Below are positions 30,380-64,000 of a DNA stretch of 64,000 nucleotides, piece after piece. The stretch comes from Mixophyes australis (lineage: Eukaryota > Chordata > Amphibia > Anura > Limnodynastidae), in NCBI GenBank assembly GCA_036250195.1, contig JAVHZZ010000003.1, positions 40,583,835-40,647,834 on the forward strand, read 5' to 3'. The notes beneath the pieces were generated by a model, which was given only the letters and a program-made list of their open reading frames with translations, was not told where the DNA came from and made no database searches. The position numbers were made by a program, and so were the translations under genes. The number at the start of each line of letters is the position of its first letter. Position 1 is the first letter of the stretch.

Positions 30380-31020
30380 AATTCAGAAACAGTAGAATGT
30401 AGCTCAGCAAATTGAAGTAGAATGTAGCTCAGCAGTATGCAGTAGAATGCCAGTCAGCAGCGTGCAGTAGAATGTAGTTCAGCAGAAGGTATAATGCAGC
30501 CCGCTAGAAGGAAGTAGAATGCAGCTCAGCAGAACTAAGTAAAATGCAACTCAGCTGTATGCAGTAGAATGCTGCTTGGCAGAAGGTATAATTCAGCTCA
30601 GCAGAAGGATGTAGAATTTAACTCAGCAGAAGGAAGTAGAGTGCAGTTTAGCAGAATGAAGTAGAATGCAGCTAAGCAGATGGAAGTAGAATGTAGTTCA
30701 GCAGAAGGAAGTAGAATGCAGTTCAGCAGTATGTAGTAGAATGTAGCTCAACAGAAGGTATAATGCAGCTTACTAGAAGGAAGTAGAATGAAAATAAGCA
30801 AAATTAAGTAGAATGCAGCTCAGTAGCATGCAGTAGAATGCTACTTGGCAGAAGGTATAATTGAGCTCAGCAGAAGGAAGTAGAATGCAGATCAGCAGAA
30901 GGAAGTAGAATGCAGTTTAGCAGAAGCAATTAGAATGCAGCTCAGCAGAAGGAAGTAGAATGCAGCTTTGAAGTGTGCAGTATAAAACAGATCAGCAGAA
31001 TGAAGTAAAATGCAGCTATG
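30380..31020 (+). repeat. 22-24-bp minisatellite
   Basis: Units of the form 'cagaaggaagtagaatgcag' plus 'ctcag' repeat about 27 times with many substitutions. There is no open frame throughout. Confidence 0.9.
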
Positions 31021-42282: not shown

Positions 42283-42390
42283 CTGGAACAGATAAAGAAA
42301 CACAGGACCTTAAAAACCATCACATAAATAGTTCATAATATGTACAAAACACCAAAGCCTGCTTTAGGACCTCATAGGACCTTAATAATA

Positions 42391-42545
42391 TAGCATGATG
42401 GAAATTAATTATTGCAGGTAGAATACATATGTGTTAATAATATAGCAAGATGGGAATTGATTGCTGTATGTATAATGCCCCTGAGTGAATGTTATAGAAT
42501 GAGTCAATACCCATGCTAATAATATAGCATGATGTCAATTAATTA
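42391..42545. repeat. Decayed 52-bp units next to gdf7 exon
   Basis: About three units recognisable from 'tagcatgatggaaattaatt', 'attgcaggtagaatacatat' and 'gtgttaataata'. The spacing from 42391 to 42443 is exactly 52 bases. They match the main array consensus at most positions but carry many substitutions. They begin 108 bases upstream of the exon boundary (in gene direction). Confidence 0.8.
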
Positions 42546-42599
42546 AATATGTTGAAAGAGACAAAACAATTGCAGACAAAATAAATGACTGTCTGCTCT

Positions 42600-42790
42600 G
42601 CATTTACTGGTGAAGATTCACAGGGGTCACCTAAACCAGGGGTAAAAGATATACCCTACTGTACTGTGAAGAATGATATATTTAATAAGAGTTCTTACAT
42701 GAACGCTCAAATGGGCCCAGATAGCATACCTCCAAGAGTGGTAAAAGAACTAAGAGTAGCACTTGCAGGACTATTAACCAATAGATGCTG
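42600..42790 (+). pseudogene. LINE reverse transcriptase fragment
   Basis: A short open stretch ends in MGPDSIPPRVVKELRVALAG. This resembles the 'GPDGIPxRVLKE' block upstream of the palm domain in CR1/RTE-type LINE enzymes. Only this block survives. Confidence 0.55.
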
Positions 42791-43019
42791 ACAGGCATTA
42801 TTACAGGCAACACTGAGCCACATGGGTTTGATAATGACCAGGGCCCTATCTGTATGGAGTTTGTATGTTCTGGAGGCATGGTATAGAGCTATGTGAGGAT
42901 GGTGACACAAGCAGTACTATCTATCTGCTTCTAATTGCATGCCTGCTTATTGACCACACCCCTCGTTTATTAGGATCAGGTCTAGATTAGGACAAGTTTC
43001 AGCTGTCTATTTAATAATT

Positions 43020-43345
43020 TTGGTGATGCAGAGGATAACTTTGCTGCCTCACTCTGCTGGGGTCATGGGTTCTGTGCTGAACATGGCTCTACCTGTATGG
43101 AGTATGTATGTTCCCCCCTGTGTATGCATGGGTTACCGCCAGGGAACTCCGGTTTCTCCAACCACCCACAGACATACTGGTAGGATAATTGACTTCAGAT
43201 GAAATTAACACTAGTGCACGTGTGTGTGGTAGGGGATATACTGTAGATTGCAAACTCCGCTGGGACAGGGACTCATGTGAATGATAAACATTTTCTGTGT
43301 AATATGTAAGTACTATATAAAATGTATTAATAAATAAATGCCAGA
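43020..43345 (+). mobile_element. Diverged SINE copy
   Basis: Same family as 29885-30238: 'gctgcctcactctgctgggg', 'tggagtatgtatgttccccc', 'cagacatactggtaggataa', 'agattgcaaactccgctggg' and a 3' end 'taataaataaatg'. A short separate piece ('ctatctgtatggagtttgta') is at 42846-42872. Confidence 0.7.
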
Positions 43346-43849
43346 AAATTGGTAAATGTAGTTCAACTGCACAAAAAAAGGCAATATAGACCTGTGAGAG
43401 GGAACATTAATGGAATCACTTAAAAAAAATACTGTTGTCTATTTTGGGTCAGACAAACTACAAGGTCCAAGGTAGCATGGATCTCAAGCAGGGCAGGGCT
43501 GGCTAATTTTAGCCCAGTGGTCAATATTGGATTTATCAGCCCATTAGGAACATTTTAAAGGAAGAAAAATGGAGGTGGCCCAGTGGTCCAGCCCAAGGTA
43601 GCCCACTATGGGGAACAGATGACCACTTGCCCTCCAACAATCCAGTCTGCCCCTGATGTCAACCCAATCTAGTGGATTATTTTGACTCAGTAACTAAAGC
43701 AACAGATCAGTGAATATTGCTTATTTCCATTGTAGCAAATTTTACACATTAACCCAAAATAAATTAATTCAAAAACCGTAAATGATTGGATTTGACTCAA
43801 ATACAGTGTAATTGATAAATGTTTGGCTACAGCACAGGAGACAGAGAGG
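43346..43849. other. No recognised feature
   Basis: Intron sequence of gdf7 by position; no recognised gene. A stretch at 43490-43650 ('ggcagggctggctaatttta') may be transposon-derived. Confidence 0.35.
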
Positions 43850-44170
43850 TAGATTTACTAAAACGTCTAAAAGTCTAAGGGCTAGATTTACTAAGCTGTG
43901 GGTTTGAAAAAGTGGGGATGTTGCCTATAGCAACCAATCAGATTCTAGCTGTCACTTTGTAGAAGATACTAAATAAATGAAAGCTAGAATCTGATTGGTT
44001 GCTATAGGCAACATCCCCACTCTTTCAAACCCGCAGCTTAGTAAATCTAGCCCTAAGAGTCTAGCTATCATTTATCTAGTACATTCTAGAAAAGGATAGG
44101 ACGAATCTGAATGGTTGCTATGGGCAACACCTCCACTTTTCCTTTTTAGAAGTTTCAGAAAATCTAATCC
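43850..44170. mobile_element. Outer CCAAT-type MITE, split by another MITE
   Basis: The left end 'gaggtagatttactaaaacg' and the right part 'gtctagctatcatttatctag', 'aatctgaatggttgctatggg', 'agaaaatctaatcc' belong to one degraded MITE. It is interrupted by the inner copy at 43879-44053. Confidence 0.7.
43879..44053. mobile_element. Inner Harbinger-like MITE with TAA duplication
   Basis: Almost the same as 9696-9870: ends GGGCTAGATTTACTAAGCTG and CAGCTTAGTAAATCTAGCCC, flanked by TAA (43876-43878 and 44054-44056). Both CCAAT boxes are intact. Confidence 0.92.
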
Positions 44171-44660
44171 AGACTGTTGTAGTCAATGGTGTAAGCTCAG
44201 AGGAAGGGCTGGTAGCCAGAGGAGTACCTCATGGCTCAGACCTTTAGATGATACGAAGGAAAGCCAACAGTGTAGTCAAGCAGTGGGAATAGTAGAATAG
44301 TAGAATACTTGGTTGTATTGGAAGAGGTATTAGGAGCAGGAGGAATGAATCAGAGAAGATGCTACATAAATGGTGCATGGGCTGCATAACAAACTTAGGA
44401 CCTGAAGAGCTGAACATTTCCAGCTTAGAGGAGACAAGGGACAGGGGTGATATGATAGAAACATTACAATATATCTAATACAAATTACTAACATAGTTTG
44501 GGAAGGCAGTGCTTTTAAAAATAATCAGGATCATAATAAGGATTTCTAAAATTAGAGGGAGGTAAGGTAACATAAGAAAGAAATTTCTTTCAGATCCACG
44601 GAATAGGATCCTAGAAGTTGTGGTGGGAACTCATACCATGATAATTCTACAATGCATGGG
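44171..44660 (+). pseudogene. CR1-like LINE reverse transcriptase fragments
   Basis: The plus strand reads roughly VVNGVSSEEGLVARGVPHGS near 44178-44240, matching the GVPQGS block. It then reads LEETRDRGDMIETLQYI near 44428-44475, matching the conserved C-terminal 'RGDMIE' block of CR1-like enzymes. The part between, including YADD, is not recognisable. Together with 42600-42790 it may be one scattered insertion. Confidence 0.6.
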
Positions 44661-45384
44661 GCATATTACTAATAGACATAGATCCGAGGCAAATGCAGGA
44701 TTTGTATAGGGTCGTTTCCACACCATCCCGCCAGTGGGCGTGACCAGCATGCATGTGGGCATGGCTATAATTTTAGACAGTGCTTGGATGCTCTCTAACT
44801 CTTACTATCCCCATAATATACATGGCCAATGCTGCGTGCACTACTGTAAGATCTCTCTTTTCTAGTGTTGATGCCAAAAAGTTTAATCTTATTCTCATCA
44901 GACCACTGAATCTTCCTCCACCTGGTATATGGATCTCGCACATGATTTATGAAAACTCTAAGCAGCACTTCATTTGATTTCTCTTCAACAATGGTTTTTT
45001 TTGCCTCCTCCTATTAAGCTTAAACTTGTTATATTCTTCCACTGGATGATGCTTTTCAATAAACTTTGGATGTCCTATGAATTTTCATCTCTTGCACATC
45101 CATGTGTAACCTCTTTATTAGCCAAACAAATCCTCAGAATATTTATGGTAACAAAAAAAATGTGTTGCTGGGCCCATGGCTAAATTTCCCCGTGAATGCT
45201 CAGAAGGGGGCCTGTTTTTCTCTTCTCAAAGCGGAGTGAAGGCCCCTGGAGTGTGACCTGGCATTGCTTGGTGCTGTTGGGGCTGCACCCCCTGGAAGTA
45301 GTTCCTCAACTGGCCACATTGATGCAAGAACATTGTGGTGTTCAATTCACCCCTGTACGAATAAGTTCATACATTCAACTCACT
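44661..45384. other. Possible Tc1 relic; otherwise unassigned
   Basis: The 44830-45080 part ('gccaaaaagtttaatcttat', 'ctcatcagaccactgaatct') resembles text common in decayed Tc1-like elements, read inverted. No ends were identified and confidence is low. Confidence 0.35.
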
Positions 45385-46400
45385 GGTAAGAATAAACTGA
45401 TAGTTTGATAGAATAAACTGATAGTTTGCCAGAATGAACTGATAGATTGATAGAATAAACTGATAGTTTGATAGAATGAACTGATAGTTTCATAGACTGA
45501 ACTAATAGTTTGACAGAATTAACTGATAGTTTGATAGAATGAACTGATAGTTTGAAGAATGAACTGATAGTTTGAAGAATGAACTGATAGTTTGATAGAC
45601 TGAACTGATAGTTTGACAGAATGAACTGATAGTTTGAAGAATGATCTGATAGTTTGATAGACTGAACTGATAGTTTGACAGAATTAACTGATAGTTTGAC
45701 AGAATTAACTGATAGTTTGACAGAATGAACTGATAGTTTGCAGAATGAACTGATAGTTTGAAGAATGAACTGATAGTTTGAAGAATGAACTGATAGTTTG
45801 AAGAATGAACTGATAGTTTGATAGACTGAACTGATAGTTTGAAGAATGAACTGATAGTTTGATAGACTGAACTGATAGTTTGAAGAATGAACTGATAGTT
45901 TGAAGAATGAACTGATAGTTTGAAGAATGAACTGATAGTTTGATAGACTGAACTGATAGTTTGAAGAATGATCTGATAGTTTGATAGACTGAACTGATAG
46001 TTTGACAGAATTAACTGATAGTTTGACAGAATTAACTGATAGTTTGACAGAATGAACTGATAGTTTGCAGAATGAACTGATAGTTTGAAGAATGAACTGA
46101 TAGTTTGAAGAATGAACTGATAGTTTGAAGAATGAACTGATAGTTTGATAGACTGAACTGATAGTTTGAAGAATGAACTGATAGTTTGATAGACTGAACT
46201 GATAGTTTGAAGAATGAACTGATAGTTTGAAGAATGAACTGATAGTTTGAAGAATGAACTGATAGTTTGATAGACTGAACTGATAGTTTGAAGAATGAAC
46301 TGATAGTTTGATAGACTGAACTGATAGTTTGGTAGAATGAACTCATTGTTTGATAGACTGAACGGATAGTTTGATAGAATGAACTGATAATTTGCTTTGT
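45385..46400. repeat. 20/22-bp minisatellite
   Basis: About 48 units of 'gaatgaactgatagtttgaa' or a 22-base variant with 'atagactgaactgatag'. A block of roughly 327 bases is repeated within the array: the unique variant 'atgatctgat' occurs at 45641 and 45968 in the same context. The long Ser/Gln/Tyr frame on the minus strand (45502-46449) is a by-product. Confidence 0.95.
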
Positions 46401-46409
46401 GTGATGGGA

Positions 46410-47090
46410 ATAAATTATCATGTAAAGGATGAAACTGTACTAATGACAAAGAATGATGAGAAATAATGAATGTATATTGAATACACTTATTGATATAGAA
46501 TAATGAGCATGAATTACTGAATGCAGAACAGACCTGTGTTAATCAAATAAAATACTGTGAATAAATGTTTGTACGTAAAAAGCATCTATGTTAATGATAT
46601 AGAACTATGGGAATTATTTACGGTGTTTAGAATACCCCCTGTGTTTATAATTATAATGCACATCATTTTTTATTCATTATTGTATATAGTATGCACTTCT
46701 ATTAATAATATAGAATGAGGGAAACAATTACTATATGTAGGATATACATCTGTTAATGATATAGGATGATGGTAATCAATATCTGTAGTGTTGATAATAA
46801 TATGATGGTAATTATTTATGTAGGATACACGTGTGTTAGTGATATAGAATAATGGAATAAATGACTGTGTATAGATTACCCTTGTGTTACAATTCAACTC
46901 TACCGGGCTATCAGTGTGATAAGGGCAATTATCTGGAAGGAATCCCAGACAGTTAGGGCAACCCTGAGAGTTACAGTTACATGGGGAAACTGTGCAGAGA
47001 CAAAAAGAGCCCGAGCATTTTACAAATCTGTGCTTGTATAATCTCTTGTATTAATAACATAGAATGACAGAAATTAATTGATGTATGTAG
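46410..47090. repeat. Decayed part of the 52-bp array
   Basis: Units can be followed by 'atatagaatgag', 'attactatatgtagg' and 'cacctgtgttaat'-like segments, but spacing and sequence are variable. It bridges the exon-proximal copies at 42391 and the better array starting near 47740. Confidence 0.7.
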
Positions 47091-47740
47091 GGGCTGACTG
47101 GTAGAGGGTGTCAGAGTAGGAGGAGCCTGCTGCCACCACTAGGCTCCTACACCGGCACCTAGAACTGCTTCCTTCTGGGTAACTTTCGCTGCTAGTGTAC
47201 TCCCTTACTGGGTAACTGGGTTGGTACCCCTGACCTTTTCCTTTAGATCAGGAATGCTGTAGATGGTTCCCCCTGGCCTATCACACTGGCCAGAGGGGCA
47301 AAGTAGCGGGCAGAGCGTTGGTACTGGAATGCTGGGTCCCAAAGATTAACATCAGGATGTGAGATGTTCTCTAAACTTGTACTTAACAAAATTTACACTA
47401 CTCTGTGATATCCTAATGTTGTTTCATTGTTCAGATCTTTCCTTCCACTTTAACAAGGCAGGATAACAGGTAAAGACACCCTGCTCTGTTTTCAGGCTAA
47501 AAAGATGTGATGGTCACTTCACATGAAAATAATTAATAAGCATGAGGCTTCCAATAGTAAAATTACAAAATTTTAATTTCCTCCCCTGGCACTGTTTCAG
47601 AAATAAATGCATTTCCTATACCGAAATACAACATAATATTAAAAAATCAGTACATTTGCAATTACATAAATTGGCGTCCTGAACTATTAATTTACATAAA
47701 TTTATACAATACGTTATTTATAAGTGATCCAGCCACAGTA
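47091..47740. mobile_element. Partial LTR-like element C
   Basis: Shares with 53686-54783 the segments 'acctagaactgcttccttct', 'gctggtaccc/ttggtacccctgacc', 'ttccccctggcctatcacac', 'gtagcgggcagagc', 'tacatttgcaattacataaa' and the end 'gtgatccagccaca'. The left end is truncated or replaced. Confidence 0.7.
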
Positions 47741-48683
47741 CCTATGTTATATATAGAATGATGGGAAATAATTACTTTATGCAGCATGCACCTTTGTTAT
47801 GTATAATATGATGGGAAATAATTATTGTTTGTAGATTGTAACTGTGTTATATATAGAATGATGGGAAATAATTACTGCATGTAGACTGTACCTGTGTTAT
47901 TTCTATAAAATGATGGAAAATAATTACTGCATGTAGAAAGCACCAGTGTTATTCATATAGAATGATGGGAAATAATTACTCTACAAAAAATGTATCTGTC
48001 TTAATTGTATAGCATGATGGCAAATAATTACGGTCTGTAGAATGCACCTGTGTTATTTATATAGAATGATGGGAAATAATTACTGTATGTAGAATGCACC
48101 TGTGTTATTTATTGAGAATGATGGGAAATAATTACTGCATGTAAAATGCACCTGTTTTATTTATATAGAATGATGGAAAATAATTATTGTCTGTAGAATT
48201 CATTTATGTTAGTTATATAGAATGGTGGAAAATAATTCCTATATGTAGAATGCACCTGTGTTAGTTATATAGAATGATGGGAAATAATGACTCCATGTAG
48301 AATGGACCTATGTTTGTTATATAGATAGATGGGATGGGAACAAAATACTGCATGTAGAAGGCACCTGTGTTATATATATATATATATATATAGAATGATG
48401 GAAAATAATGACTGTATGTGGAATGCACCTGTGTTAGTTATATTGAATGATGGGCAATAATAATTACTGCATGTAGAATACACATGTGTTACTTATATAG
48501 AATGATGGGAAATAATTACTGCATGTAGAGTGCACCTGTGTTATTTAAGTAGAATGATGGGAAATAATTACTGTTTGTAGAATTTATCTGTGTTACTTAT
48601 ATAGAATGATGGGAAATAATGACTGCATGTAGAGTGCACCTGTGTTATTTATGTAAAATGGTGGGAAATAACTGCTGCATGTG
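47741..48683 (+). repeat. 52-bp minisatellite, block 1
   Basis: About 18 units of consensus 'tagaatgatgggaaataatt' + 'actgcatgtagaatgcacct' + 'gtgttattta' + 'ta'. Similarity between units is high, with scattered changes. Confidence 0.95.
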
Positions 48684-50242
48684 CAGTCATGGTCAAAGGT
48701 ATTGAGAATGATACAAGTATTATTTTTTCACAAAGTCTGCTGCCTCAGTTTTATAATGGCAATTTGCATATACTTCAGAATGTTATGAAGAGTGCTCAGA
48801 TTGCAATTAATTTCAAAGTCCCTCTTTGTCATGACAATAAACTTTATCCCAAAAACAACATTATCACTGCATTTCAGCCCTGCTATTAGAGGCCCAGCTG
48901 ACCTCAGGTCAGTGATTCTCTTGCTAACACAAGTGAGAGTGTTGACAAGGACAAGGCTGGAGATCACTCTGTCATGCTGATTAAGTTAGAATAACAAACT
49001 GGAAGCTTTAGAAGGAGGGTGGTGCTTGAAATCATTGTTCTTCGTCTGTTAACCATGGTTATCTGCACAGAAACACGAGCAGTCATCATTGCTTTGCACA
49101 AAAAGGGCTTCACAGGCAAGGATATTGCTGCTAGTAAGATTGCACCTAAATCAACCATTTATCGAATCCTCAAGAACTTCAAGTAGAGAGAGTCAATAGT
49201 TGTGAAGAAGGCTTCAGGGTGCCCAAGAGCGTCCAGTAAGTGCCAGGACCGTCTTGTAAAGTTGATTCAGCTGCGGGATCGGGCACCACCAGTGCTGAGC
49301 TTGCTCAGGAATGGCAGCAGGCAGGTGTGAGTGCATCTGCACGCACAGTGAGGCGAAGACTTTTAGAGGATGGCCTGGTGTCAAGAAGGCCAACAAAGAA
49401 GTCACTTCTCTCCAGGAAAAACATCAGGGACAGACTGATATTCTGTAAAAGTTACAGGTATTGGACTGCTGAGGACTGGGGTAAAGTAATCTCCTATGAT
49501 GAATCCCCTTTCAGATTGTTTGGGGCATCTGGAAAAACGCTTGTCCGGAGAAGGAAATGTGAGCGCCACCATCAGTCCTGTGTCATGCCAACAGTAAAGC
49601 ATCCTGACACCATTCATGTGTGGGGTTGCTTCTCAGCCAAGGGAGTGGGCTCACTCACAATTTTGCTCAGACATGAATAAAGAATGGCACCAAAACATCC
49701 TCCAAGAGCAACTTCTCCCAACCATCCAAGAACAGTTTGATGATGAACAATGCCTTTTCCAGCATGATGGAGCACCTTGCCATAAAAGTGAAAACTAAGT
49801 GGCTCAGGGCCCAAAACATCGAAATTTTGGGTCCATCGAAATTTTTGGGTCCACTCCCCAGACCTTAATCCCACTTGAGAATTTCTGGTCAATCCTCAAG
49901 TGGGGGGGTGGACAAACAAGAACCCACAAATTCTGACAAACTCCAAGCATTGATTAGGCAAGAATGGGCTGCCATCAGTCAGTATGTGGCCCAGAAGTTG
50001 ATTGACAGCATGCCTAGGTGAATTGCAGAGGTCTTCAAAAAGAAGGGTCAACACTGCAAATATTGACTCTTTGCATAAACTTAATGTAATTAACAATAAA
50101 AGCCTTTGACACTTATGAAATGCTTGTCAGTTTACTTCAGTATACCATAGCAACATCTGACAAAAAGGTCTAAAAACAATTAAGCAGCAACCTTTGTGAA
50201 AACCAATACTTGTGTCATTCTCAAAACTTTTGCCCATGACTG
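48684..50242 (+). mobile_element. Tc1-like DNA transposon, nearly full length
   Basis: Ends CAGTCATGGTCAAAGGTATT and the inverse of AACTTTTGCCCATGACTG form long terminal repeats ('gagaatgatacaagtatt' with 'aatacttgtgtcattctc'). The right flank is TA and the left TG, a mutated TA. Removing the element restores the 52-bp unit exactly at its 'gcatgTAgaatgc' position. The interior holds a broken transposase gene. Confidence 0.95.
49055..50090 (+). pseudogene. Tc1-like transposase, broken
   Basis: This would encode a Tc1-type DD34E transposase, about 340 residues in intact relatives, which cuts and pastes its element at TA sites. The N-terminal paired-type helix-turn-helix reads ALHKKGFTGKDIAASKIAPK before a stop at about 49184. 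The frame 49240-49680 carries a second HTH block (SASARTVRRRLLEDGLVSRR) and VISYDESPFRLFG with the first Asp. A different frame (49616-49798) has CLFQHDGAPCHK with the second Asp. IPLENFWSILK near 49868 has the Glu. All three catalytic residues are still readable but separated by frameshifts and stops, so it is inactive. Confidence 0.92.
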
Positions 50243-50244
50243 TA

Positions 50245-50480
50245 CAATGCACCTTTGTTAGTTAAATTGAATGAGTAGAAGTAATTTCTGCATGTAGAAT
50301 GCACCCGTGTTATTTATATGGAATAATGGGAAATAATTACTATTTGTAGAATTAATCTGTGTTACTTATATATAATGATGGGAAATAATTACTGTATATA
50401 GAATGCACCTGTGCTAATTGTATGTCATGACGGGAACTATTTGCTGCATGTGGGATGCACCTGTGTTAGTTATATTGAAT
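50245..50480 (+). repeat. 52-bp minisatellite, block 2
   Basis: Four to five units between the Tc1-like element and the hAT relic, resuming in phase after the Tc1 insertion. Confidence 0.92.
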
Positions 50481-53373
50481 GACACAGAGGCAGGAGGGGT
50501 GGCAGTGTTCTTGTCAGTCTTCAGTGACATTGCTATCTGCAATTGCTTACACAGAAAGAGGAGCAAGGCAGTGTTCTTGTCCCTCTCAAGTCTCCGGTGA
50601 CATTGCTCAGTGCCATTGCTCACACAGAAAAATTTCATGTGTAAAAGCGGAGCTGTAAAAAACAGTAAGACAGTAGAAGAAACTGTATGTTTGGAAATGG
50701 CATAAATCCCTGAGGAGAGTCCATTCACGAGTGGTATGTGTAATCCTGACCTGTCTGATGGTGTACCCATAAAGAAGGTCCCTTTCAGCATTTGTGCAGA
50801 TGTGTGCCTGAACAGCTGAGTGTAGCCGGTGATACACAAATTGAGGAAGTCACTTTGGAATTGCAACAGAATGTGGGTGATGTGGGTGATGTTTGTGTAG
50901 ATGACGAGGGCGCTAATGAGGATGTTGATGAGGATGATGTTGTTTGTGTAAGTCCTGCAGATCTTGCACATGATAAGAAGAAGGCCATTGTCATGCCTGG
51001 GCATAAGAGTAAAAAATCCACCTCCTATGTGTGAAATTATTTTTACCCAAATCGTGACAACAGTTGTCTAGCCATTTGTAGTGTTTGTAAAGCCACAGTA
51101 AGTAGAGGTAAGGATCTTAACCATCTAGGAACCTCATCCATGTTACGCCATTTGAAGAGAGTTCATATGAAGCTTTTGGGAAAACCAGAAACTTCTGCTA
51201 AAAAAATAACAACAAGCAGTCCAGCATCAGCTAGGACCCTTCTCTCAGCTAGATCCCGACACCTGCAATCTACACCCACAACACCATCCTCAGCAATATC
51301 CTCAGTAGCGATCGGAGTTAGTCCTGCATCCAAGTTGCTAAGGCAGCTCCACTATCATGGATTACTCAGAAGAATACTTGAGCGTTAGTCCCACTGCTGC
51401 TGCTGCTGCTGGGGGTGGATCTTCATCCCAGAAGCAGACCAAGAAGAAGACTACTAGTAATTTACAACAATTGACTGTTAAACAATCCTTTGCAAGAGGA
51501 AGCAAGTATGACAGCTGTCACCCAGTCGCAAAGCAGATCACAGGCGCCATGGCGTTTATACTAGTATCAGATCTGCTTCCAATATCCACAATTAATGCAG
51601 CTGGTTTAAGACAGTTATATAAGGTCCTGTGCCCCTGTTACCAAATTCCATCACAACACTATTTTACTACAAAGGCAACTCCTCACCTCTATCAGAAGGT
51701 TTGATAAAATGTAATTATTGGTCTACAAAATTTCCTTCTACTCACTGTACTAGTCTTAACCACAGATATGTGGACAAGCGGAACTGGGCAAACTAAAGAT
51801 TATATGACTGACAGCCCAATGGGTTGATGAATCGCCTTCGGCAGCAGGGACAGCAGCAGCATCTAACAAACAATGTCGGATTTTTCAAAGGCAGGCTACT
51901 CTGTTTATCACCAGCTTCACTAAGAGACATTCCGCTGACAACCTGTTAGAAAAACTAAGGGATGTCATTGCAACATGGCTTATCCTGCTTGGACTCTCCT
52001 GAAGATATGCGATTTCTGATTACGCCACCAATATTGTGAGAGCATTACAGCTGCGTGAATTCCATCACATTCCCTGTTTTGCTCACACAATCAACTTGGT
52101 GGTATCAAAAACTTCAGCCACAAAAGTGGTAGTCCTTGTCACTTTTGTTAAACTGTACATGTCCATTTTAACATATTTCCAAGGACAATTCCATCTTGCA
52201 CTGTTTGACATTTAGGCATTGGTCTATCAGCTTGTGTAACCTGAAAATTCAGGTGTTAACAGTATTATTAGGTCGCCAATTCACATGGTAGACAGCATGA
52301 TTAGGTAGACTATTCAAATGTGGACAGTATTATTGTAAGGCTAGTGATATGGTTAAGGACAGGTCTAGAGACAGGGATAGGGACAGGTGTAGTGATAGGT
52401 ACTGGTGTAGACATAGGGCCAGGTATAGGAATAATGATAGGGGGTAGGGATAAGGATAGGGCTAGGTATAGGAATAGGAATAGGGACAGGGCAGTTGTTG
52501 TCAATGTATTGTCGACTTTATAACCTTGTCTAGTCTGCTGCCCATCAATCATATTATGTCAATCCTACATAAGGGTGGGTGGGAGTTACCAAGGACAATT
52601 CCATCTTGCACCACTTTTCTGCCACTGTTGTGTGGCAATGTTTCATAGACGTGCTATGGACTGCTGTGTGTTTGTGCCTTTGCTCTGTTGTTTAGTATCC
52701 AGCCAGGTCACTGCAGTCTTTGGTCGAAAGTGGAGGAAAATAATATTGTGACCTGTGAGGTGGTCAAAATTGACTGGAAATGAATGGAAATTAGTATTAT
52801 TGAGGTTAATAATAATGTAGGAAGAAAAAAAAAAGCCAAATTTAGTGATTTTAGCATATTTTAGCAATTTTTAAAAAAAATACAGAACCAAAACCAAAAC
52901 ACATGAGGGCGGTTTTGCCAAAACCAAAACACATGAGGGCGGTTTTGCCAAAACCAAAACACGAAGTTAATACAAATCCAAAACCAAAACAAAAACACAG
53001 GGGTCAGTGAGCATTCCTATCTATGATCTCTCGTGGTATCAGCTGCTTGAATTCTGCAGTCTTACAGTTCATTGACAGCACTGTTAGCTTAGCTGCCTTA
53101 AACCCATTGGTAGCTTGTTTTGTGGAGGCCCAAACAAACCAAGAACTTCAAAAGTGTCACTCCTTGTAGCTAAACTGCTTGGTTTGTTAAACTGTACCTG
53201 CTACCCCTCCCGTTTCTGTGTGAGTTTGTTAAACCTTTTTAAAATATTAACATTTTAGCAATTTTTAATAAAAATAAAAACATCCAAAACCAAAACACGT
53301 GAGGCGGTTTTGTCAAAACCAAAACACAAAGTTAATAGAGATCCAAAACCAAAACCAAAACACGGGGGGAACA
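50481..53373 (+). mobile_element. hAT transposon relic
   Basis: Insertion in the 52-bp array with a decayed hAT transposase gene, an inner 'gggacagg/gataggg' repeat tract (52330-52500), and two successive copies of the 3' end. These have 'aaaaccaaaacac' repeats ending near 53020 and 53370. The first 3' end matches 32735-33078. The terminal repeat is seen on the right ('gtcagtgagcattcctat' and 'gggggaacatctatag'); the left end was not identified. Confidence 0.75.
50800..52215 (+). pseudogene. hAT (BED-finger) transposase, broken
   Basis: The order of recognisable parts is that of hAT transposases. An acidic leader is followed by a BED zinc finger (NYFYPNRDNSCLAICSVCKA, ending in HLKRVH, about 51034-51165). 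A Ser/Thr-rich linker and FARGSKYDSCHPVAKQITGA and LYKVLCPCYQIPSQHYF follow (about 51490-51670). Next come LTTDMWTSGTGQTKDYM (about 51760-51810) and DYATNIVRALQLREFHHIPC plus FAHTINLVV (about 52017-52105). The C-terminal dimerisation region is missing. Several stops and frameshifts make it nonfunctional. No host domestication is suggested. Confidence 0.82.
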
Positions 53374-53685
53374 TCTATAGAAATAATGACTGTATGTAGA
53401 ATGGACCATGTTAGTTATATAAAATGATGGGAATTACTTACTGTATGCAGAATGCACCTGTCTTATTTGTATAGAATGATGGGAAATAAATACTGCATGT
53501 AGAGTGCACCTGTGTTAGTTATATAAAATAAAGAGAAATAATTTCTCTATGTAGAATGTACGTGTGTTAGTTATAGTGAATGATGGTAATTATTTACTGT
53601 ATGTAGAGTACACCTTTGTTATTTATATAGAATGATGAAAAATAATAACTGAATGTAGAATGCACCTGTGTTATTTATATAGTGT
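53374..53685 (+). repeat. 52-bp minisatellite, block 3
   Basis: About six units between the hAT relic and the LTR-like element. Confidence 0.93.
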
Positions 53686-54783
53686 GATAGGATGGACCTC
53701 CTTTGCCACCCAGTCTGTTGTGCTCTTGGGGACCGGATGGGCTAGCCTTGCCACCATCCCCTCTTTCTTTATCCCAAATGCGTCCTCTCACCGCAGTAGG
53801 AGGGACTTTTGCTGCTGCCAGCAAGAGTCTTCTTAGTGGCACCTAGGACCGCGTCCTTCTGGGTAAGTCTCACTGCTAGTGTACCCCCTTGCTGGTACAC
53901 CTTGGCTGGTACCCCTGACCTCTTTCCCTCAGATCTGGGTTGCTGTGGATGATTCCCCCTGGCCTATCACACTTTCCATAGCTGCAGGTAGCGGGCAGAG
54001 CTTTGGTACTAGAATCCTGGGTCCCAACCTCAGAGCAGCCGGATAACGGATTAGATGTAGTCTAATCTGCAAGTCACAAGAATTATAGCAGGGCAAATAG
54101 TCGTCAAAGCAGGATCTTGAAGCAGAGATGTTTTATTAGATCAAGTGTACTAATAAGGACAGTTACATACACTAGTTTCAGGTACTAGTGATATCCAGAA
54201 GTACAGATGGCATAACATATTTCAGTGTAAAATACAATTTTGGACACTACCTTGGCAGGAGGTAATCTAGCCTTCTGCCCCCCCCCCCCCCCTCCCTCCC
54301 CCTCCCACCATTCCAGACTGATTCATGCAGCCTGCATGTGAAACAGTCTGGAGGGGATTAACACCTTTTTACTTAGCTACTAGCGGCGCCACTACATCTG
54401 AGATTTTTTATTAAATGCTTATCATCCAGATATCACATTTCTATAATCTTACTTTGAACGCAATTTTGCTTGCAAAATTCACATTCATATGTGCTCTTTT
54501 GCATAGGCAGTCTGCCAGAAAGTATAATAATATCCACCTGTCATTCAGACTGAACAGACGTTTTGGTCACTGAGCGATGAAAAGGTCTAATTGACATGAG
54601 ATTACCTGTCTCTAGACAGTTGTAACCTCAAACATGACATACTGTCTCAGAAGTCCGTACATTTCCATAGAAAACACATACCACTATAAAAGGATAAGTA
54701 CATTTGCAATGATATAAAGAAGTGCATTGCACTCATAATTAAAATAAATATCTTCAATAATTTTTTACTATGTGATCCAGCCA
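53686..54783. mobile_element. LTR-like element D, 1.1 kb
   Basis: Begins TGTGATAGGATGGACC and ends GTGATCCAGCCACA, so TG...CA with short inverted ends. Flanking 'tatag' and 'tttag' could be a 5-bp duplication with one mismatch. Includes a C-tract at 54281-54294. A relative is at 47091-47740. No coding sequence, so it is best read as a solo LTR. Confidence 0.6.
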
Positions 54784-56665
54784 CATTTAGAATGATGGGA
54801 AATAATGACTATACGTGGACTGCACCTGTGTTATTTACATAGAATGTTAGGAAATAGTATACGTTGAATGCACCTGTGCTAGTTATATAGAATAATGGGA
54901 AATAATTCCTGTATGTAGAATGCACCTGTGTTATTTATATAGAATAATGGGAAATAATTCCTGTATGTAGAATACACCTGTGTTGTTTATATAGAATGAT
55001 GGGAAATAATTACTGCATGTAGAATGCACCTGCGTTATTTATATAGAATAATGGGAAATAATTCCTGTATGTAGAATGCACCTGTGTTATTTATATAGAA
55101 TGATGGGAAATAATTACTGCATGTAGAATGCACCTGCGTTATTTATATAGAATGATGGTAGATAATTACTACATGTAGAATGCACCTGTGGTATTTTTCT
55201 AGAATGATGGGAAAAAAATACTGCATGTAGAATACACGAGTGTTATTTATATAGAATGATGGGAAACAGTAACTGTATGTAGAATGCACCTGTGCTAGTT
55301 ATATAGAATGATGGGAAATAAATACCGCATGTAGAGTGCACCCAAGTTACTTATATTGAATGATGTGAAATAAAAACTGAATGTAGAATGCACCTGTGCT
55401 AGTTATATAGAATGATGGGAAATAATAGCTGTACGTAGAATGCACCTGTGTTACTTATATAGAATGATGGGAAATTATAACTGTACGTAGAATGCACCTA
55501 TGCTAGTTATATAGTATGATGGGAAATAATTACTGCATGTAGAATGCTCCTGCTTTAATTATATAGAATGATGGGAAATAATTACTACATGTAGAGTGCA
55601 CCTGTGTTATTTTTCTAGAATGATGGGAGAAAATTACTGCATGTAGAATGCACAAGTGTTATTTATATTGAATGATGGAAATAATAACTGCATATAGAAT
55701 GTACCTGTGCTAGTTATATAGAATGATGGGAAATAAATATTGCACGTAGAATGCACCTGTGTTAATTATATAGAATGGTGGGAAAAATTAACTGTATGTA
55801 GAATGCACCTATGCTAGTTATATAGTATGATGGGAAATAATAACCGCATGTAGAATGCTCCTGTCTTAATTATATAGAATGTTGTGAAATAATTATTGCA
55901 GGTAGATTGCACCTGTTTTAGTTATATAGAATGATGAGAAATAATTACTGCAGGTAGAATGCACCTGTGGTACTTATATAGAATGATGGGAAATAATTAC
56001 TACATGGAGAGTGCACCTGTGTTAGCTATATTGAATGGTCGGAAATAAATACCATATGTAGAATGCACCTATGTTATTTATATGGAATGATGGGAAATAA
56101 TTACTACATGGAGAGTGCACCTGTGTTATTTATATAGAATGATGGAAATAATAACTGCATATAGAATGTACCTGTGCTAGTTATATAGAATGATGGGAAA
56201 TAAATATTGCACGTAGAATGCACCTGTGTTAATTATATAGAATGGTGGGAAAAATTAACTGTATGTAGAATGCACCTATGCTAGTTATATAGTATGATGG
56301 AAAAATAATAACCGCATGTAGAATGCTCCTGTCTTAATTATATAGAATGTTGTGAAATAATTATTGCAGGTAGATTGCACCTGTTTTAGTTATATAGAAT
56401 GATGAGAAATAATTACTGCAGGTAGAATGCACCTGTGGTACTTATATAGAATGATGGGAAATAATTACTACATGGAGAGTGCACCTGTGTTATTTATATG
56501 GAATGATGGGAAATAAATACTGCATGTAGAGTGCACCTGTGTTAGTTATATAGAATGATGAAAAGAATTACTTCATGTAGAATGCACCTGTGTTAGTTAC
56601 ATAGATTTATGGGAAATAATTACTGCATGTAAAATGCACCTCTGCTAGTTATATAGAATGATGGG
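54784..56665 (+). repeat. 52-bp minisatellite, block 4 (largest)
   Basis: About 36 uninterrupted units. A stretch of about 350 bases starting at 55674 recurs at 56141, an offset of 467 bases or nine units, with the same rare variants ('aactgcatatagaatgtacc', 'attgcacgtagaatgcacc', 'ttgtgaaataattattgcag'). Confidence 0.97.
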
Positions 56666-57100
56666 CAGGGCCGGATTAACGGAATGGAGGCCCCTGGGCT
56701 AATGGGGCCCCCATTCCCCCGTGAGGCCCCCCCTCATTAGCAGCCTGGCCCCCCTGTTAGCCGACCGCTCCCCCCCCTCCCCTCCTCCCTCCCCTCCAAG
56801 CGCTTACCTTCTCCTCTCCTGTCACTGCAGTCCTCCTTCCTACTGCAGTCCTCCTTCCGCGGCGCGCTGTAAGCTCCTTACTGAGGAGATCTCGTGACAC
56901 TCTCGCGAGATCTCCTCAGTAAGGAGATTACTGAGCGCCGGAGAAGGAGGACTGAAGTGACAGAGCTCAGCATTGATCGGGCCGGGGGCGCCCCCGCCCC
57001 CGTCCCGATCAATACCTCTGCTGAACTCTGTCAAGGGCCCCTTGGATGCCCGAGGCCCCTGGGCTGTAGCCCAGTTAGACCTCGGGTTAATCCGGCCCTG
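56666..57100. mobile_element. GC-rich hAT MITE in the array
   Basis: Ends CAGGGCCGGATTAACGG and the inverse of GGGTTAATCCGGCCCTG. The flanks are ATGATGGG on both sides (56658-56665 and 57101-57108), a perfect 8-bp duplication taken from the array unit. Inside are 'cgtgacactctcgcgagatc' and mirrored 'ctccttactgaggagatctcg' arms. No transposase. Confidence 0.93.
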
Positions 57101-57265
57101 ATGATGGGAAATAAATACCGTATGAAGAATGCACCTGTGTTAGTTATATACAATGATGGGAAATAAATACTGCATGTAGAGTGCACCTGTGTTAGTTATA
57201 TAGAATTATGGGAAATAATTACTGCATGTAAAATGCACCTCTGCTAGTTATATAGAATGATGGGC
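57101..57265 (+). repeat. 52-bp minisatellite, block 5
   Basis: Three units between two copies of the hAT MITE. The unit before the second copy carries the same variants as the unit before the first. Confidence 0.93.
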
Positions 57266-57358
57266 AGGGCTGGATTAACGGAATGGACGCCCCTGGGCTA
57301 ATGGGGCCCCCATTCCCCCGTGAGGGCCCCCCCCCCCATTAGCAGCCTGGCCGCCCTG
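57266..57358. mobile_element. Truncated duplicate of the hAT MITE
   Basis: The first about 90 bases match the start of 56666-57100 ('cagggctggattaacggaat', 'gggctaatggggcccccatt', 'cattagcagcctgg'). It then returns abruptly to array sequence at 'ggaaataattactgc'. Its left flank is the same as that of the full copy, so it arose by duplication of array plus element rather than by a new insertion. Confidence 0.85.
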
Positions 57359-58282
57359 TTGGAAATAATTACTGCATGTAGAATGCACCTGTGTTAGTTA
57401 TCTAAAATGATGGGAAATAAATACTGCATGTAGAGTGCACCTGTGTTAGTTATATGGAATGATGAGAAACAATTACTATATATAGAATGCTCTTGTTTTA
57501 GTTATATAGAATGATTGGAAATAATTACTGCGTGTAGAATGCACCTGTGTTCTTTATATAGCATGATGGGAAATAATAAATGTATTTAGAATGCACCTAT
57601 GCTAGTTATATAGATTGATGGAAAATAATTACTGCATGTAAATTGTACCTGTTTTAATTATATAGAATGATGGAAAGTAATTACTGCAGGTAGAATGCAC
57701 CTGTATTAGTTATATGGAAATATGGGAAATAATTAATGCAGGTAGAGTGCATCTGTGTTATTTATATAGAATAATGGGAAATAATAACTGTATGTATAAT
57801 GCACATGTGCTAGTTATATAAAATGATGTAAAATAATGAATGCACCTGAGCTAGTTATATAGAATGATGGGAAATAAATACTGTATGTAGAATGCACCTG
57901 TGTTAGTTATATAGAATGATGGGAAATAAATACCGTATGTAGAATGCACTTGTGCTAGTTATATAGAATGATGGGAAATAATTACTGTATGTAGTATGCA
58001 TCTGCGCTATGTACATAGAATGATGAAAAATATTTCCCGCATGTAGAGTACACCTGTGTTATTTATATAGAATGTTGGGATATAATAACTGTACGTAGAA
58101 TGATCCTGTGCTAGTTATATAGAATGATGGGAAATGATTGCTGCATGTATAATGCATCTGTGTTACTTATATGGAATGATAGGAAAATATTCCTGCATGT
58201 ACAATACACCTGTGTTAGTTATATAAAATGATGGGAAATAATTACTGTACATAGAATGCACCTGTGTTACTTATATAGAATA
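57359..58282 (+). repeat. 52-bp minisatellite, block 6
   Basis: About 18 units ending at the 3' tail of the minus-strand LINE. Confidence 0.95.
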
Positions 58283-58353
58283 ATAATAATCATCATCATA
58301 ATTTATTTATATGGCGCCAGTAAATTCCGCAGCGCTTTACAATTAGGAACAAA

Positions 58354-59281
58354 CAGTGCTTTTTTTCCCATAGAACGCTGGGAACGGCGTTCCGGGACCT
58401 TTTTTTTTTGTTTGCGGCGGCTTCTCCGCCGGCCTTTAACAATAAAAAGTAAAAAAAATAAACAAATACCATCTCTCCGGCGCGGCTGCGCTCTCCTCCC
58501 TTCTCTATTTGCTAGGACTGTCGGGCGTGACGTCATCACGCACTTCGCGCCCGGCATTCATTCACGGAGGTGTGAGGAGCATATTCAACACAAGAAGAGG
58601 AGCGCCGCACCAGAAATGAAAGCTAATAAGAAGTGAAGAGGAGAAAGGAGGCAATAGAAAGCAAGGTAAGTTAAAGGAAAAATGGGGGGCCGTTTAAAAG
58701 AAAGTGTGCAAAAAAATAAATGGTGATTTTTTTTTTTAAAAAGGTCAGCATGATGGTGGGGGGAAGGGGAAAGGGGGTTCGGTATAAAAATTAGTAGGGC
58801 CCGGGTCACAGCATAAAAACTCAAGGGGGACCAAAAAATTAGTAAGGGCACTGGCATTGGCACAGGATGAAACCTGAAGGGGGACATAAAAATTATTAGG
58901 GGCACTGGCACAGGATGACACCTGAAGGGGGACATAAAAATTATTAGGGGCACTGGCACAGGATGACACCTGAAGGGGGACATAAAAATTATTAGGGGCA
59001 CTGGCACAGGATGACACCTGAAGGGGGGCATAAAAATTATTAGGGGCACTGGCACAGGATGACACCTGAAGGGGGACATAAATATTATTAGGGGCACTGG
59101 CACAGAATGAAGACTGAAGGGGGGCATAAAAATTATTATTAGTGTTTGGAATTTACTATGAACATTTGCCTGAAATACAATACATTAAAGGTATGTTTAG
59201 ACATGAATATATAATTTTTTTTCATAAAATATTAACAAGATGTGAGTTCCACCACCTTTTTTTTTTACAAAAAAATCACTG
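58354..59281. mobile_element. Nonautonomous hAT element inside the LINE 3'UTR
   Basis: Ends CAGTGCTTTTTTTCCC and the inverse of ACAAAAAAATCACTG, flanked by GGAACAAA on both sides (58346-58353 and 59282-59289), a perfect 8-bp duplication. It interrupts the LINE tail between 'gtttgttcc' and 'aattgtaaagcg'. It includes a GC-rich leader and a 48-bp tandem repeat; there is no transposase. Confidence 0.9.
58855..59130. repeat. 48-bp tandem repeat in the hAT element
   Basis: Five to six copies of 'cctgaagggggacataaaaa' + 'ttattaggggcactggcaca' + 'ggatgaca'. The minus-strand 180-codon frame here is a repeat by-product. Confidence 0.95.
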
Positions 59282-59616
59282 GGAACAAACATTAATAAAA
59301 CAATACTGGGTAATACATACAGTCAGAGGTAAGAGGGCCCTGCTTGCAAGCTTACAATCTATGGGGCAGTGGGAGTTTGAAACACAAGGGTACGTGCTTG
59401 CATATTGGACCAGCTAGAATACAAAGGTAAAAAGTATTGACTGTACTGTGTGATCAGTCACGCAGCAATGTTGGTCAGAGGGTTGTTGTCTTGTGTTAGA
59501 TGTGTAGAGGGTGGTAATAGGGTAACCTAGGGAGATTTAGATGCTGGTTGAGGAATATCATAAGCTTGTCTGAAGAGGTGGGTTTTCAGAGAAGGTTTGA
59601 AGACTGGAGGAAAGTC

Positions 59617-62500
59617 TTATTTTGTGTGGGAGGAAATTCCACAAAGTGGGTGCAGCCCGAAAAAGTCCTGTAACCGGGAATGGGAGGATGTGATCAGAGC
59701 GGAAGAGAGACGCAGATCTTGTGCAGAACAGAGGTGTCTCGTTGGGAGATATTTTGAGACAAGTGAAGAGATGTATGTCGGTGCAATTTTGTTGATGGCC
59801 TTGTATATTAGTAAAAAAGTTTTATATTGTATTCGTTGAAAAATAGGCAACCAATGTAGAGACTGACAGAGTGACTCAGCAGAGGAAGAACTGTTTGCAA
59901 GGAACAACAATCTAGCCGCTGCGTGCAAAATAGATTGTAGGGGTCCAAGTCTGATTTTCGGAAGACCATTAATGAAGGAATTGCAATAGTCAATGCGGTA
60001 GATGATGAGTGCATGATTTAAGGATTTTGCGGTGTCTTGTGTGAGATATGTGAGTATTCTGGAAATGGTCTTAAGATGTATGTAACATGATTTAGATATA
60101 GAGTTGATGTGGGGAGCAATGGATAGTTCTGAGTCAAGGATTACACCTAGGCAGCGAGCTTGCGGGGTGGGATTTATGGTCATGTTATCAACAAAAATAT
60201 AAATGTCAGGCAGGATATTTCAATTTTTGGGTGGGAATTATTAATTCTGCTTTTGAAAGATTGAGTTTGCGAGTTGGCGAGAAGACATCCAAGATGAAAT
60301 GGCAGAAAGACAGTCAGTAACGTGAACAACACAGATGGTGAAAGATCAGGAGAGGATGAATAGATTTGTGTGTCATCCGCATAGAGATGATATTGAAAAT
60401 CTAAAGGAGCTTATTAGTTTTCCAAGAGAAGTGGTGTAGATAGAGAATAGCTGAGGACCTAGGAGTGAGCCTTGTGGTACTGCAACTGATAAAGGAAGCA
60501 AAGCAGAGGTGGATCCAGACAAATTAGCACTGAAAGAGCGATTAGATAGGTATGATGAGAACGAGGATAGGACAGTGCCTTCAAGACCTAGGGATTGTAG
60601 CGTTTGTATGAGGAGACAGTGGTCAACAGTGTCAAATGCAGTAGAGAGATCCAGGAGAATTAAAATAATGGCCTTCAGTTTTTGCTGTGATCAAATCATT
60701 GACAACCTTGGTCAGTGCAGTCTCTGTGGAGTGTTGGGAGCGAAAGCCTGACTGAAGAGAATCCAGTAGGTTGTTTGCTGTAAGAAAATTTGTGAGGTGA
60801 GTGTAGACTATTCTGTCAAGAGGCTTGGAGGGGCATGGGAGCTGGGAGATGGGGCGGTAATTTGAGAGAGATTGGATCAGAATTTAGGTTTAGGAGTAAT
60901 CACTGCATGCTTGAATAGTGATGGAAAAATACCAGTAGAAAGAGATAGATTACAGATTTTAGTTAGAGGTGGAATGAGCACAGGAGACAGGGACCAACCA
61001 ATTTGTGAGGGTATGGGATCAAGAGGATAGGAGGTAGAGTAGGAAGATGAGAAGAGAGTAGAAACTTTATCTTCATTTGTGGGATAAAATGAAGTGAGCG
61101 TGTCAGAGGGTGCTACAAAGAAATTGAGATGATGATTGTCAAGGGAGATACCATTTCAAGTTTGGTCTTATCTATTTTATCCTTGAAATAGGAAGCAAGA
61201 TCCCGGGCACTGATGGTAGTTGGAGGATTTGGGGTGGGAGGATTCAGAAGAGATTTAAATGTGTTAAAGAGGTGTTTGGGGTTAGAAGCCTGAGAATAGA
61301 TGAGAGATTGAAAGTAGGTTTGTTTAGCAGTGTCCAGAGCATTTCTATAGGAGTGGTAGATATCAGTATATGTGATGAAATCATTAGAGGTACAAGATTT
61401 ACTCCAGTGATGTTCTGCTTTATGAGAAAGTTTTTTTGGAGAAAGAGTTTGTGTTACTTTAGTGTGCCACGGCTGGCAACAAAGTCTAAGCGGAGTATGT
61501 ATAGTCGCTAGAACCACTTGATCAAGGGCAGTTGCTAGGGTTTGTTGAAAATGAGGTTCTGCCCTATCAGGCGATTAGAATGTAGAAATTGGGCAGAGGA
61601 GGTGCTGAAGAGAGAGGAAAAACATTTGAAAATCAATAGCGTTTGTATTCCTGCGGTTGTGAGGAGGCTTGGAGGAGTTTGACACTGGGGAGATTAAAGA
61701 ACTGGGGGTGAGCGAGTAGGTAAAAAGGTGATGATCAGAGAGGATGAAAGGAGTCTTAAGGAAATGAGAAACTGAGCATAGTCTAGAGAAAACAAGATCA
61801 AGACAGTGGCCATCCTGATGAGTAGCGGATTCAGTCCACTGGGAGAGGTCAACTGAGGATGTTAGAGAGAGAAGTTTGGAAGCAGCATTGGAACGTGGAT
61901 TAGCAATAGGGATATTGAACTCACCCATGATGACGGTGGGGACGTCCAAAGATAGAAAGTGAGGGAGCCATGCAGAGAAGTGTTCAAGAAATTGTTGGTG
62001 TGGTCCAGGGGGGCGATAGATGACAGCAACACACATAGAGAATGGGTTAAAAATCCTAACGGTATGTACTTCAAAAGAAGTGAACGTGAGCGATGGGACA
62101 TTTCGTAGAACTGTGAGCGTGCACTGTGGGGAGAGAAGTAGTCCAACCCCCACTCCTTGTCTGCCTCCGGGTCTGGGGGTGTGGGTGAAATGGAGACCAC
62201 CATGTGAAAGGGCTGCAGGTGAGGCAGTGTATGATTGCGTGAGCCATGTTTCTGTTATTGCCTGAAGGTTGAGGGTGTTTGAGAGGAAGAGATCATGAAT
62301 GGAGGTAAGTTTGTTACAAACAGAGCGTGCATTCCAAAGGGCACAGTTAAAGGACTTTGGAAGAAGGGGGAGACAGGTGATGCATTTGAGGTTTGCTGGA
62401 TTTCTGTAGCGTTCAGATATATGTGTGTGGGAGAATTGAGGGGGACCTGGATTAGGTGTTACATCACCAGCTAAAAGAAGCACTGGACAAAGAAAGATAG
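59617..62500 (-). pseudogene. LINE endonuclease-reverse transcriptase, copy B, broken
   Basis: From the 5' side: MLLLAGDVTPNPGP, a 2A-like signature (62483-62442), and an endonuclease domain in one frame to 61575 (RSVCNKLTSIHDLFLS, ITETWL, HGGLHFTHT, AVIYRPPGP, MGEFNIP, SDHHLFTYS). The catalytic Asp of GDFN is Glu here. A linker follows with RNALDTAKQTYFQSL and SARDLASYFKDKIDK (61517-61113). Then come [19 protein letters not shown] (about 60480-60425), an intact YADD (60383-60372), LGVILDSELSI and the C-terminal block to 59617 (TYISSLVSKYLP). Several frames and stops separate the parts. The upstream frame with a hydrophobic leader lies at 62727-62464. Confidence 0.9.
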
Positions 62501-63425
62501 GAAAGATGATTGTAAGAAGTGTGTCCTTTAAGTTTCTGGCGACAGGGTGAGGCTGTTATATCTATTGAATATAAATAGGACAACAGTTCATGAGTGTTAA
62601 GTAGAGTTGAGTGAAGTAATGAAGGGGCAATGTGGACAGAGGTGTGTGTTGCAGGATGGGTGAGGGATGATATAGTCCTAAATATAATGCCATGAAAGGT
62701 GAGTAAGAAAAATAATTTGGCAAACATTTGGATTTATGCGTAAAATGGCAAAAAATTAGGGAATTAAAAGAATTATCTAGTTGCAATGTCCTGTGTAATC
62801 AGAGAAGTAGTGCAGAGTGAGGCTGCAGTATATGTAGTTTATTCCTGGATGTCTGGATGACATGGAGTAATGATGTGGGGAGCCATGTGGGGAAGTGGGT
62901 GGAAGTGTTGAATGGAGAATAATAAAGAACAGGTGATGTAGTAGCTGAGTTATTGCATGGTCATGAGAAAGGTGAGTGGTTCAAACTCAGTTTAATTTCT
63001 TCCTACTTGTGATGGGAGACAAAGCTTTGAGTAGAATTGAAAGTACAATGATGAGATAGAGGACTGAAACAGCTGTAGCATGGGTAGGAAGTGGTTGAGC
63101 AAGTAGCACAGCAGACTGGTTAAACAGAGGGGATGTTGCAGGGAAAATAAACTGACAGATAAAACAAACTTTCATTAGCTGAGTATAAAATAAGAGCAGA
63201 GTCCAAAACAGTATTCTTGTGGTGAAGCTTGTAGCCAGGGAGAGATGGAAACATCAGGAGTAGAATATGGAGTTTCAGGTGAATACTGACTGTTGTCCTT
63301 CTGTAGCCGTGGTAATAGACCGAATGTTCTTCTCTGTTTCCTCCTGTTTAACTTCGGTATAACTCCGAATTATGGTATTTAATTTTTTTTGCACTTATAA
63401 CTATACACTTAGAGCTATACACACT

Positions 63426-64000
63426 AACTACAATGTTGGGAAATAATTACTGTATGTAGAATGCACCTGTGCTAGTTGTATAGAATGATGGGGAATAATA
63501 ACTGCATGTGGAATGCACCTTTGTCAGTTATAAAGAATGATGGGAAATAATAACTGCATGTAGAATGCACCTGTGTTAGTTATATATAATGATGAAACAT
63601 AAATACTGTATGTAGAATGCACCTGTTTTAGTTATATAGAATGATTACAAATAATTACTGCATGTAGAATGCACCTGTGTTATTTATATAGAATGATGGA
63701 AAATAATTACTATATATAGAATGCACATGTGTTTCTTATATAGAATGATGGGAAATATTTACTGTAAATAGAATGCGCCTGTATTACTTATATAGAATGA
63801 TGGGAAATAATTACTGCAGGTAGAAAGCACATGTGGTAACTATATTGAATGATGGGAAATAATAACAGCATGTAGAATGAACCTGTGATATTTATATAGA
63901 ATGATGGGAAATAATTACTGCAGATATAATGCACTTGTGTTAGTTATATAAAATGATGGTAAATAAATACTGTATGTAGAGTGCACCTGTGCTAGTTACA
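63426..64000 (+). repeat. 52-bp minisatellite, block 7 (to window end)
   Basis: About eleven units continue to the last base, so the array extends beyond the window. Confidence 0.96.

Follow-up and report, generated by a model that had tools for sequence, protein, structure and literature searches.

A transposon-split 52-bp minisatellite in the predicted last intron of gdf7 in the frog Mixophyes australis

Introduction

Minisatellites are tandem arrays with a unit of roughly 10–100 bp. In Xenopus tropicalis and other frogs, a 52-bp minisatellite has been described that derives from the 3′ tail of a short interspersed nuclear element (SINE), SINE/tRNA-V, and is expanded only in subtelomeric copies, and the growth of such subtelomeric minisatellites is ascribed to unequal crossing over (PMC10794172). 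In human genes, CACNA1C carries an intronic variable number tandem repeat (VNTR) with a 30-bp unit and a length of 3 to more than 30 kb, for which length variation and an association with expression were measured (PMC13131567), and the length of an intronic VNTR in ABCA7 correlates with skipping of exon 19 (PMC5954066). Here, we describe a 52-bp tandem array beside the last exon of gdf7 in a stretch of 64,000 nucleotides from the frog Mixophyes australis (assembly GCA_036250195.1, contig JAVHZZ010000003.1, positions 40,583,835 to 40,647,834 of the forward strand), referred to below as the window.

The Mixophyes array shares with the Xenopus one its frog host, its tandem arrangement and its unit length of 52 bp, but no SINE was identified beside it. 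Like the CACNA1C repeat, it is a kilobase-scale minisatellite in the predicted intron of a protein-coding gene, but it is cut by inserts; like the ABCA7 repeat, it would lie within an intron. Among the literature matches listed, none deals with this array, with repeats in gdf7 introns or with satellites of myobatrachids. The explanation we favor, with a probability of roughly 80%, is a single old and probably neutral minisatellite in the intron before the last gdf7 exon, grown by exchange and split by transposons.

Results

A profile hidden Markov model based on 78 copies and applied to the whole window (cut-off E ≤ 0.01) finds 104 copies of a 52-bp unit with the consensus TAGAATGATGGGAAATAATTACTGCATGTAGAATGCACCTGTGTTAGTTATA. 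They span 42391–63999, total 5178 bp and lie head to tail on the + strand in 104 of 104 cases. Tandem Repeats Finder reports the same period of 52 at 47750–48682, 50241–50482, 53380–53682, 54788–58281 and 63432–63998. Units of the main blocks mostly score 40–60 bits, whereas the top score in five first-order Markov sequences of 64 kb is 8.9 bits. With a gap limit of 60 bp the copies fall into 11 blocks. Seven main blocks hold 18+5+6+36+3+18+11 = 97 units, close to the count of about 96 in seven blocks given in an earlier note on this DNA, and four minor blocks nearer the exon (42391–42485, 46450–46645, 46711–46757 and 46845–46889) hold 7 degenerate units. The array is real and runs, as had been noted, from near the splice acceptor to the window end. 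Its description as 21 kb of repeat filling the intron overstates its length, as the units amount to 5.2 kb, or 24% of 42391–64000. The remainder, previously put down to inserted transposons altogether, is inserted or unclassified DNA: transposons do interrupt the array, but a 21-bp array, which the earlier note does not mention, and several unclassified stretches also contribute.

The exon beside the array is read on the − strand. Its frame, which ends at 41369 (stop codon 41369–41371), contains the TGF-beta domain PF00019 (E=3.3e-37). Among the best 120 of 980 protein matches, the closest is GDF7 isoform X1 of the myobatrachid frog Pseudophryne corroboree, with 91% identity over the whole 304-amino-acid query, and nine of the ten top-scoring proteins are named GDF7, the tenth being GDF6-A-like. 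From this one exon, the DNA would come from a frog that is probably related to the myobatrachids but is not P. corroboree. A tblastn alignment to the exon spans 42283–41375. Judged by these similarities, the exon is the last one of gdf7. It starts at 42282, behind the acceptor TTTCTTTATCTGTTCCAG (sense); the first profile hit follows after 108 intron bases, as against the ~110 proposed earlier; BLAST similarity to other 52-bp units already starts at 42381. The N-terminal 112 residues of five GDF7 proteins from frogs match nothing in the window better than E=0.31, and we therefore place the array in the gdf7 intron, which would thus be at least 21.7 kb long and contain the array, unless exon 1 is very diverged here. 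The earlier note had reached the same placement and had regarded a first exon at 42283–46000 as the observation that would contradict it; the five frog queries locate none there or elsewhere in the window.

Unit phase resumes over all eight large gaps, with offsets of 10, 6, −3, 11, 0, 4, 10 and 1 bases where anything from −26 to +26 is possible. The chance of all eight lying within ±11 is 0.0015 and that of a range from −3 to 11 is 5e-5, both ranges having been picked post hoc. The ends are clean in two of the inserts. One, a Tc1-type element bounded by long inverted repeats, lies at a TA of the 52-bp unit, the left TA now reading TG. A miniature inverted-repeat transposable element (MITE) at 56666–57100, which we take to be hAT-like from its ends and the length of its duplication, sits cleanly in the array between perfect 8-bp target duplications (ATGATGGG).

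The start of this MITE is found twice with the same array flank (56503–56758 and 57101–57360 are 92% identical, with a 65-bp exact run at 56607/57206), and the array was therefore still duplicating after the insertion. A second duplication, of nine units (467–468 bp), lies in block 54788–56665, with exact runs of 164 and 190 bp; mean unit identity at lag 9 is 0.858, compared with 0.806–0.836 for the rest of lags 1–19. Together with a 327-bp period in the 21-bp array described below, these duplications point to unequal exchange or slippage. The recent duplications inside the array make variation in its allele length plausible.

Toward the exon the units are worn. Blocks there average 16–27 bits versus 36–53 in the seven main blocks, from which the profile was mostly made, and BLAST agrees: 46402–46890 is only 65–75% identical to units further out, and the edge units at 42391–42540 are ~73–77% identical to them. 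Unequal exchange in the core combined with wear at the edge would yield such a pattern of decay.

An assembly artefact, in which the array was collapsed, expanded or misjoined, is hardly credible in light of these features. Exact direct repeats of 350 bp in the 21-bp array and 190 bp in the 52-bp block could mislead a short-read assembly, but no exact direct repeat in 42284–64000 exceeds 350 bp, a length that long reads would span. The 52-bp units differ from one another by ~20% (mean pairwise identity 0.80), the inserts are in phase, two of them with clean ends, and N bases are absent.

Between the exon and the main blocks lies the 21-bp array (45389–46394), with 48.9 copies, a 327-bp higher-order period and a longest exact repeat of 350 bp. 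In-register 52-bp units follow directly after it (extrapolation puts their start at 46397, and the dimer profile gives E=2.1e-9 from 46402). In alignment, the 21-bp unit covers the latter half of the 52-bp unit and crosses the unit junction, with a 3-base gap (p 0.0025). These matches make it probable that the 21-bp array is a re-amplified half-unit: on the exon side, a stretch of the 52-bp array would have been reduced to a 21-bp sub-unit taken from that latter half, which then amplified again. A division of the 52-bp unit itself into two similar halves (28+24) was rejected; both begin TAGAATG, but their likeness is not significant (p 0.11).

A third array, with a 25-bp unit in ~25 copies, is located on the + strand downstream of gdf7 (30391–31017), and all three might descend from one TAGAATG-containing ancestor. 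Their common + strand fits such descent, as does the start of in-register 52-bp units at the end of the 21-bp array. The 52- and 25-bp units have GTAGAATGCA(C/G)CT in common (12 of 13 positions, p 0.001 before correction), and nine units other than the 21- and 25-bp ones give p 0.38–0.96 against the 52-bp unit. On the + strand, all 39 sites of GTAGAATGCA fall within arrays, including 7 in the 25-bp one, and there is one − strand site, at 32306. The single-unit profile scores the 25-bp unit at 2.5 bits, with 0 of 999 shuffles as good. It misses the 21-bp unit, however, whereas the dimer profile misses the 25-bp unit and gives the 21-bp unit −0.4 bits, with 10 of 999 shuffles equal or better; the two profiles thus disagree, each reporting only one of the shorter units. 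Compared directly, the 21- and 25-bp units give p 0.06, and correction for 11 comparisons raises the p values of the 52-bp unit against these two to ~0.01–0.03. We treat common ancestry as a tentative proposal and somewhat doubtful.

The earlier note had suggested that the array could affect splicing or chromatin. Folded as RNA, three 52-bp units are no more stable than their shuffles (z 0.73, with 150 of 200 as good). The acceptor itself is outside the array, and the 107 bases next to it hold no profile hit. CACCTG, which reads CAGGTG on the transcribed strand, occurs in 52 copies in the main blocks; the idea that these act as E-box decoys was dropped, as the motif, which 55.6% of 90 units carry intact, ranks 18th among 47 hexamers and is not specially conserved. 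Candidate cryptic splice sites (ACAG/GT, transcribed strand) were also set aside, being weak by eye against the splice-site consensus. RNA of the 21-bp array (45746–45867, minus strand) folds better than most shuffles (z −2.71, 4 of 200 as good) but weakly, at −5.3 kcal/mol over 122 nucleotides, and we give it little weight. The suggestion finds no support here; an effect on gdf7 is possible by analogy with the human intronic VNTRs.

A more specific proposal is that the array serves gdf7 as a regulatory or splicing element of variable length, a role reported for the human ABCA7 and CACNA1C VNTRs (PMC5954066, PMC13131567). Besides that precedent, its intronic position ~100 bp from the acceptor, the CACCTG copies and the recent duplications, which suggest a changeable length, would fit such a role. 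The loss of CACCTG from many units, its middling hexamer rank and the unremarkable three-unit fold argue against it, and the units closest to the acceptor are among the most decayed; we consider this role highly improbable. Likewise very improbable is the combined proposal of a living, length-variable array on whose copy number gdf7 splicing or expression would depend and which belongs to a local lineage of 25-, 52- and 21-bp minisatellites grown on both sides of the last exon.

We compared the tandem content of the window with published frog figures. Tandem arrays with five or more units, each unit being longer than 10 bp, occupy 10.67% of X. tropicalis chromosomes (PMC10794172). By roughly this definition (at least five copies), they occupy 13.7% of the window, 28% of its intron part with the 21-bp array included, and 6.3% of the rest (2652/42283 bases). 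The intron part stands at ~2.7 times the Xenopus mean, a loose comparison with a window that was picked for its array. The 8.87-Gb assembly of P. corroboree consists of 76% repeats (PMC12314482). Given these figures for tandem arrays and repeats in frogs, a minisatellite in a long frog intron is no great surprise; the array is probably ordinary repeat DNA, and its earlier description as unusual finds no support in the X. tropicalis value set against that of the window.

The unit might instead have come from part of a mobile element, as with the Xenopus SINE/tRNA-V tail, and represent a subtelomeric family expanded at many loci. The identical unit length of 52 bp in that frog minisatellite favors this origin, but satellite expansions are said to differ in non-Xenopus frogs (PMC10794172). 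Within the window, the unit has no copy outside the array, where the top score of 6.2 bits is inside the random-sequence range, and there is neither a tRNA gene nor an Rfam family at gathering score, though neither tool was built for decayed SINEs. A 26-base piece of the unit has 0 exact matches in viral and 0 in prokaryote collections, which hold non-frog sequence and are uninformative on its spread among frogs. We regard a mobile-element origin as unlikely.

The features of the exon and the intron part are collected in Table 1. In the unclassified insert 46890–47753, positions 47127–47342 are 81% identical to 53812–54027, and its right end resembles that of insert 53683–54787, the match continuing into array units. 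No terminal inverted repeat was found for insert 53683–54787, and no clear target duplication at the ends of insert 50483–53379. In the LINE-type (long interspersed nuclear element) insert, RVT_1 (E=5.4e-10) and Exo_endo_phos (E=9.5e-5, under its curated cut-off) lie in separate frames; two copies of one LINE-type element, at 23109–25263 and, within this insert, at 59280–63090, lie on opposite strands and are 89% identical over 1394 columns.

Table 1. The gdf7 last exon and the features of the adjoining intron part
Feature	Position	Strand	Evidence
gdf7 last coding exon, end of propeptide and TGF-beta domain	41369–42282	−	PF00019, protein matches, tblastn
Intron bases, acceptor to first profile hit	42283–42390	−	Sequence reading; acceptor TTTCTTTATCTGTTCCAG
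Degenerate edge of 52-bp array, with 2 units at E ≤ 0.01 followed by weaker traces (by eye)	42391–42540	+	Profile, BLAST
Interspersed repeats, parts recurring elsewhere in window, ends not defined	42541–45388		BLAST
Nested 21-bp array, 48.9 copies	45389–46394	+	Tandem Repeats Finder
Degenerate 52-bp units, 5 at E ≤ 0.01	46397–46889	+	Profile; dimer profile E=2.1e-9 from 46402
Insert, unclassified	46890–47753		BLAST
52-bp block, 18 units	47754–48683	+	Profile
Tc1/mariner-type element with terminal inverted repeats	48684–50242	+	HTH_Tnp_Tc3_2 E=1e-16; inverted repeats, flanks
52-bp block, 5 units	50243–50482	+	Tandem Repeats Finder, profile
Insert with BED zinc-finger frame (hAT-type suspected) and 30-bp tandem repeat	50483–53379	+	zf-BED E=1.9e-6
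52-bp block, 6 units	53380–53682	+	Tandem Repeats Finder, profile
Insert, class uncertain, TG...CA ends, imperfect 5-bp duplication TATAG/TTTAG (by eye)	53683–54787		Sequence reading
Largest 52-bp block, 36 units	54788–56665	+	Profile
Presumably hAT-like MITE (435 bp), ends CAGGGCCGGATTAAC/GTTAATCCGGCCCTG, 8-bp target duplication ATGATGGG	56666–57100		Sequence reading
52-bp block, 3 units	57101–57264	+	Profile
Second, short MITE copy (~first 93 bp of MITE 56666–57100), after same array flank	57265–57358		Repeat comparison
52-bp block, 18 units	57359–58284	+	Profile
LINE-type insert, ends approximate, includes 48-bp tandem 58853–59138	58285–63429	−	RVT_1, Exo_endo_phos
52-bp block, 11 units, to window end	63430–64000	+	Tandem Repeats Finder, profile

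Other repeats occur in the window. A fold-back repeat (GGGCTAGATTTACTAA...) at 43870–44061 recurs near 9688, 20745, 32220 and 37742, with matches in both orientations. No other long minisatellite array in the window is as homogeneous as the 85-bp tandem array at 15124–16402 (15 copies, 96% matches), which may therefore be young. Compound G-rich tandem repeats of 13–55 bp occupy 26093–26639, with long open frames on both strands.

Discussion

The sequence of events that we infer for the gdf7 array begins with growth by unequal exchange or slippage, which would have kept the core units similar. Transposons would then have inserted, splitting one array into blocks of common strand and unit phase. 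Recombination probably continued thereafter, giving the recent nine-unit duplication in one block and, in another, the duplication of the MITE start with its flank.

Several points weigh against this account of one old, neutral array. Identity is 0.805 between adjacent units and 0.800 over all pairs, and there is little local homogenization apart from the duplications. The ends of 42541–45388, 46890–47753, 50483–53379 and 53683–54787 are not defined, those of the LINE-type insert are approximate, and not every gap between blocks is a proven transposon. The scores behind the 21-bp origin are modest (p 0.0025, 10 of 999 shuffles equal or better, and a miss by the single-unit profile). Neutrality is read from an absence of signal. 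Satellite DNA makes up 0.0022–0.43% of 14 anuran genomes (PMC10324214), which, although a different measure, argues against a general abundance of such arrays among frogs and so against the word ordinary.

Taken as a whole, the array lets one read how a frog intron expands: by growth of a minisatellite, wear at the edge, uptake of transposons and duplication of array and transposon together. If length alleles exist, it would offer a natural test of whether arrays within introns influence a developmental growth factor; failing that, it is ordinary repeat DNA.

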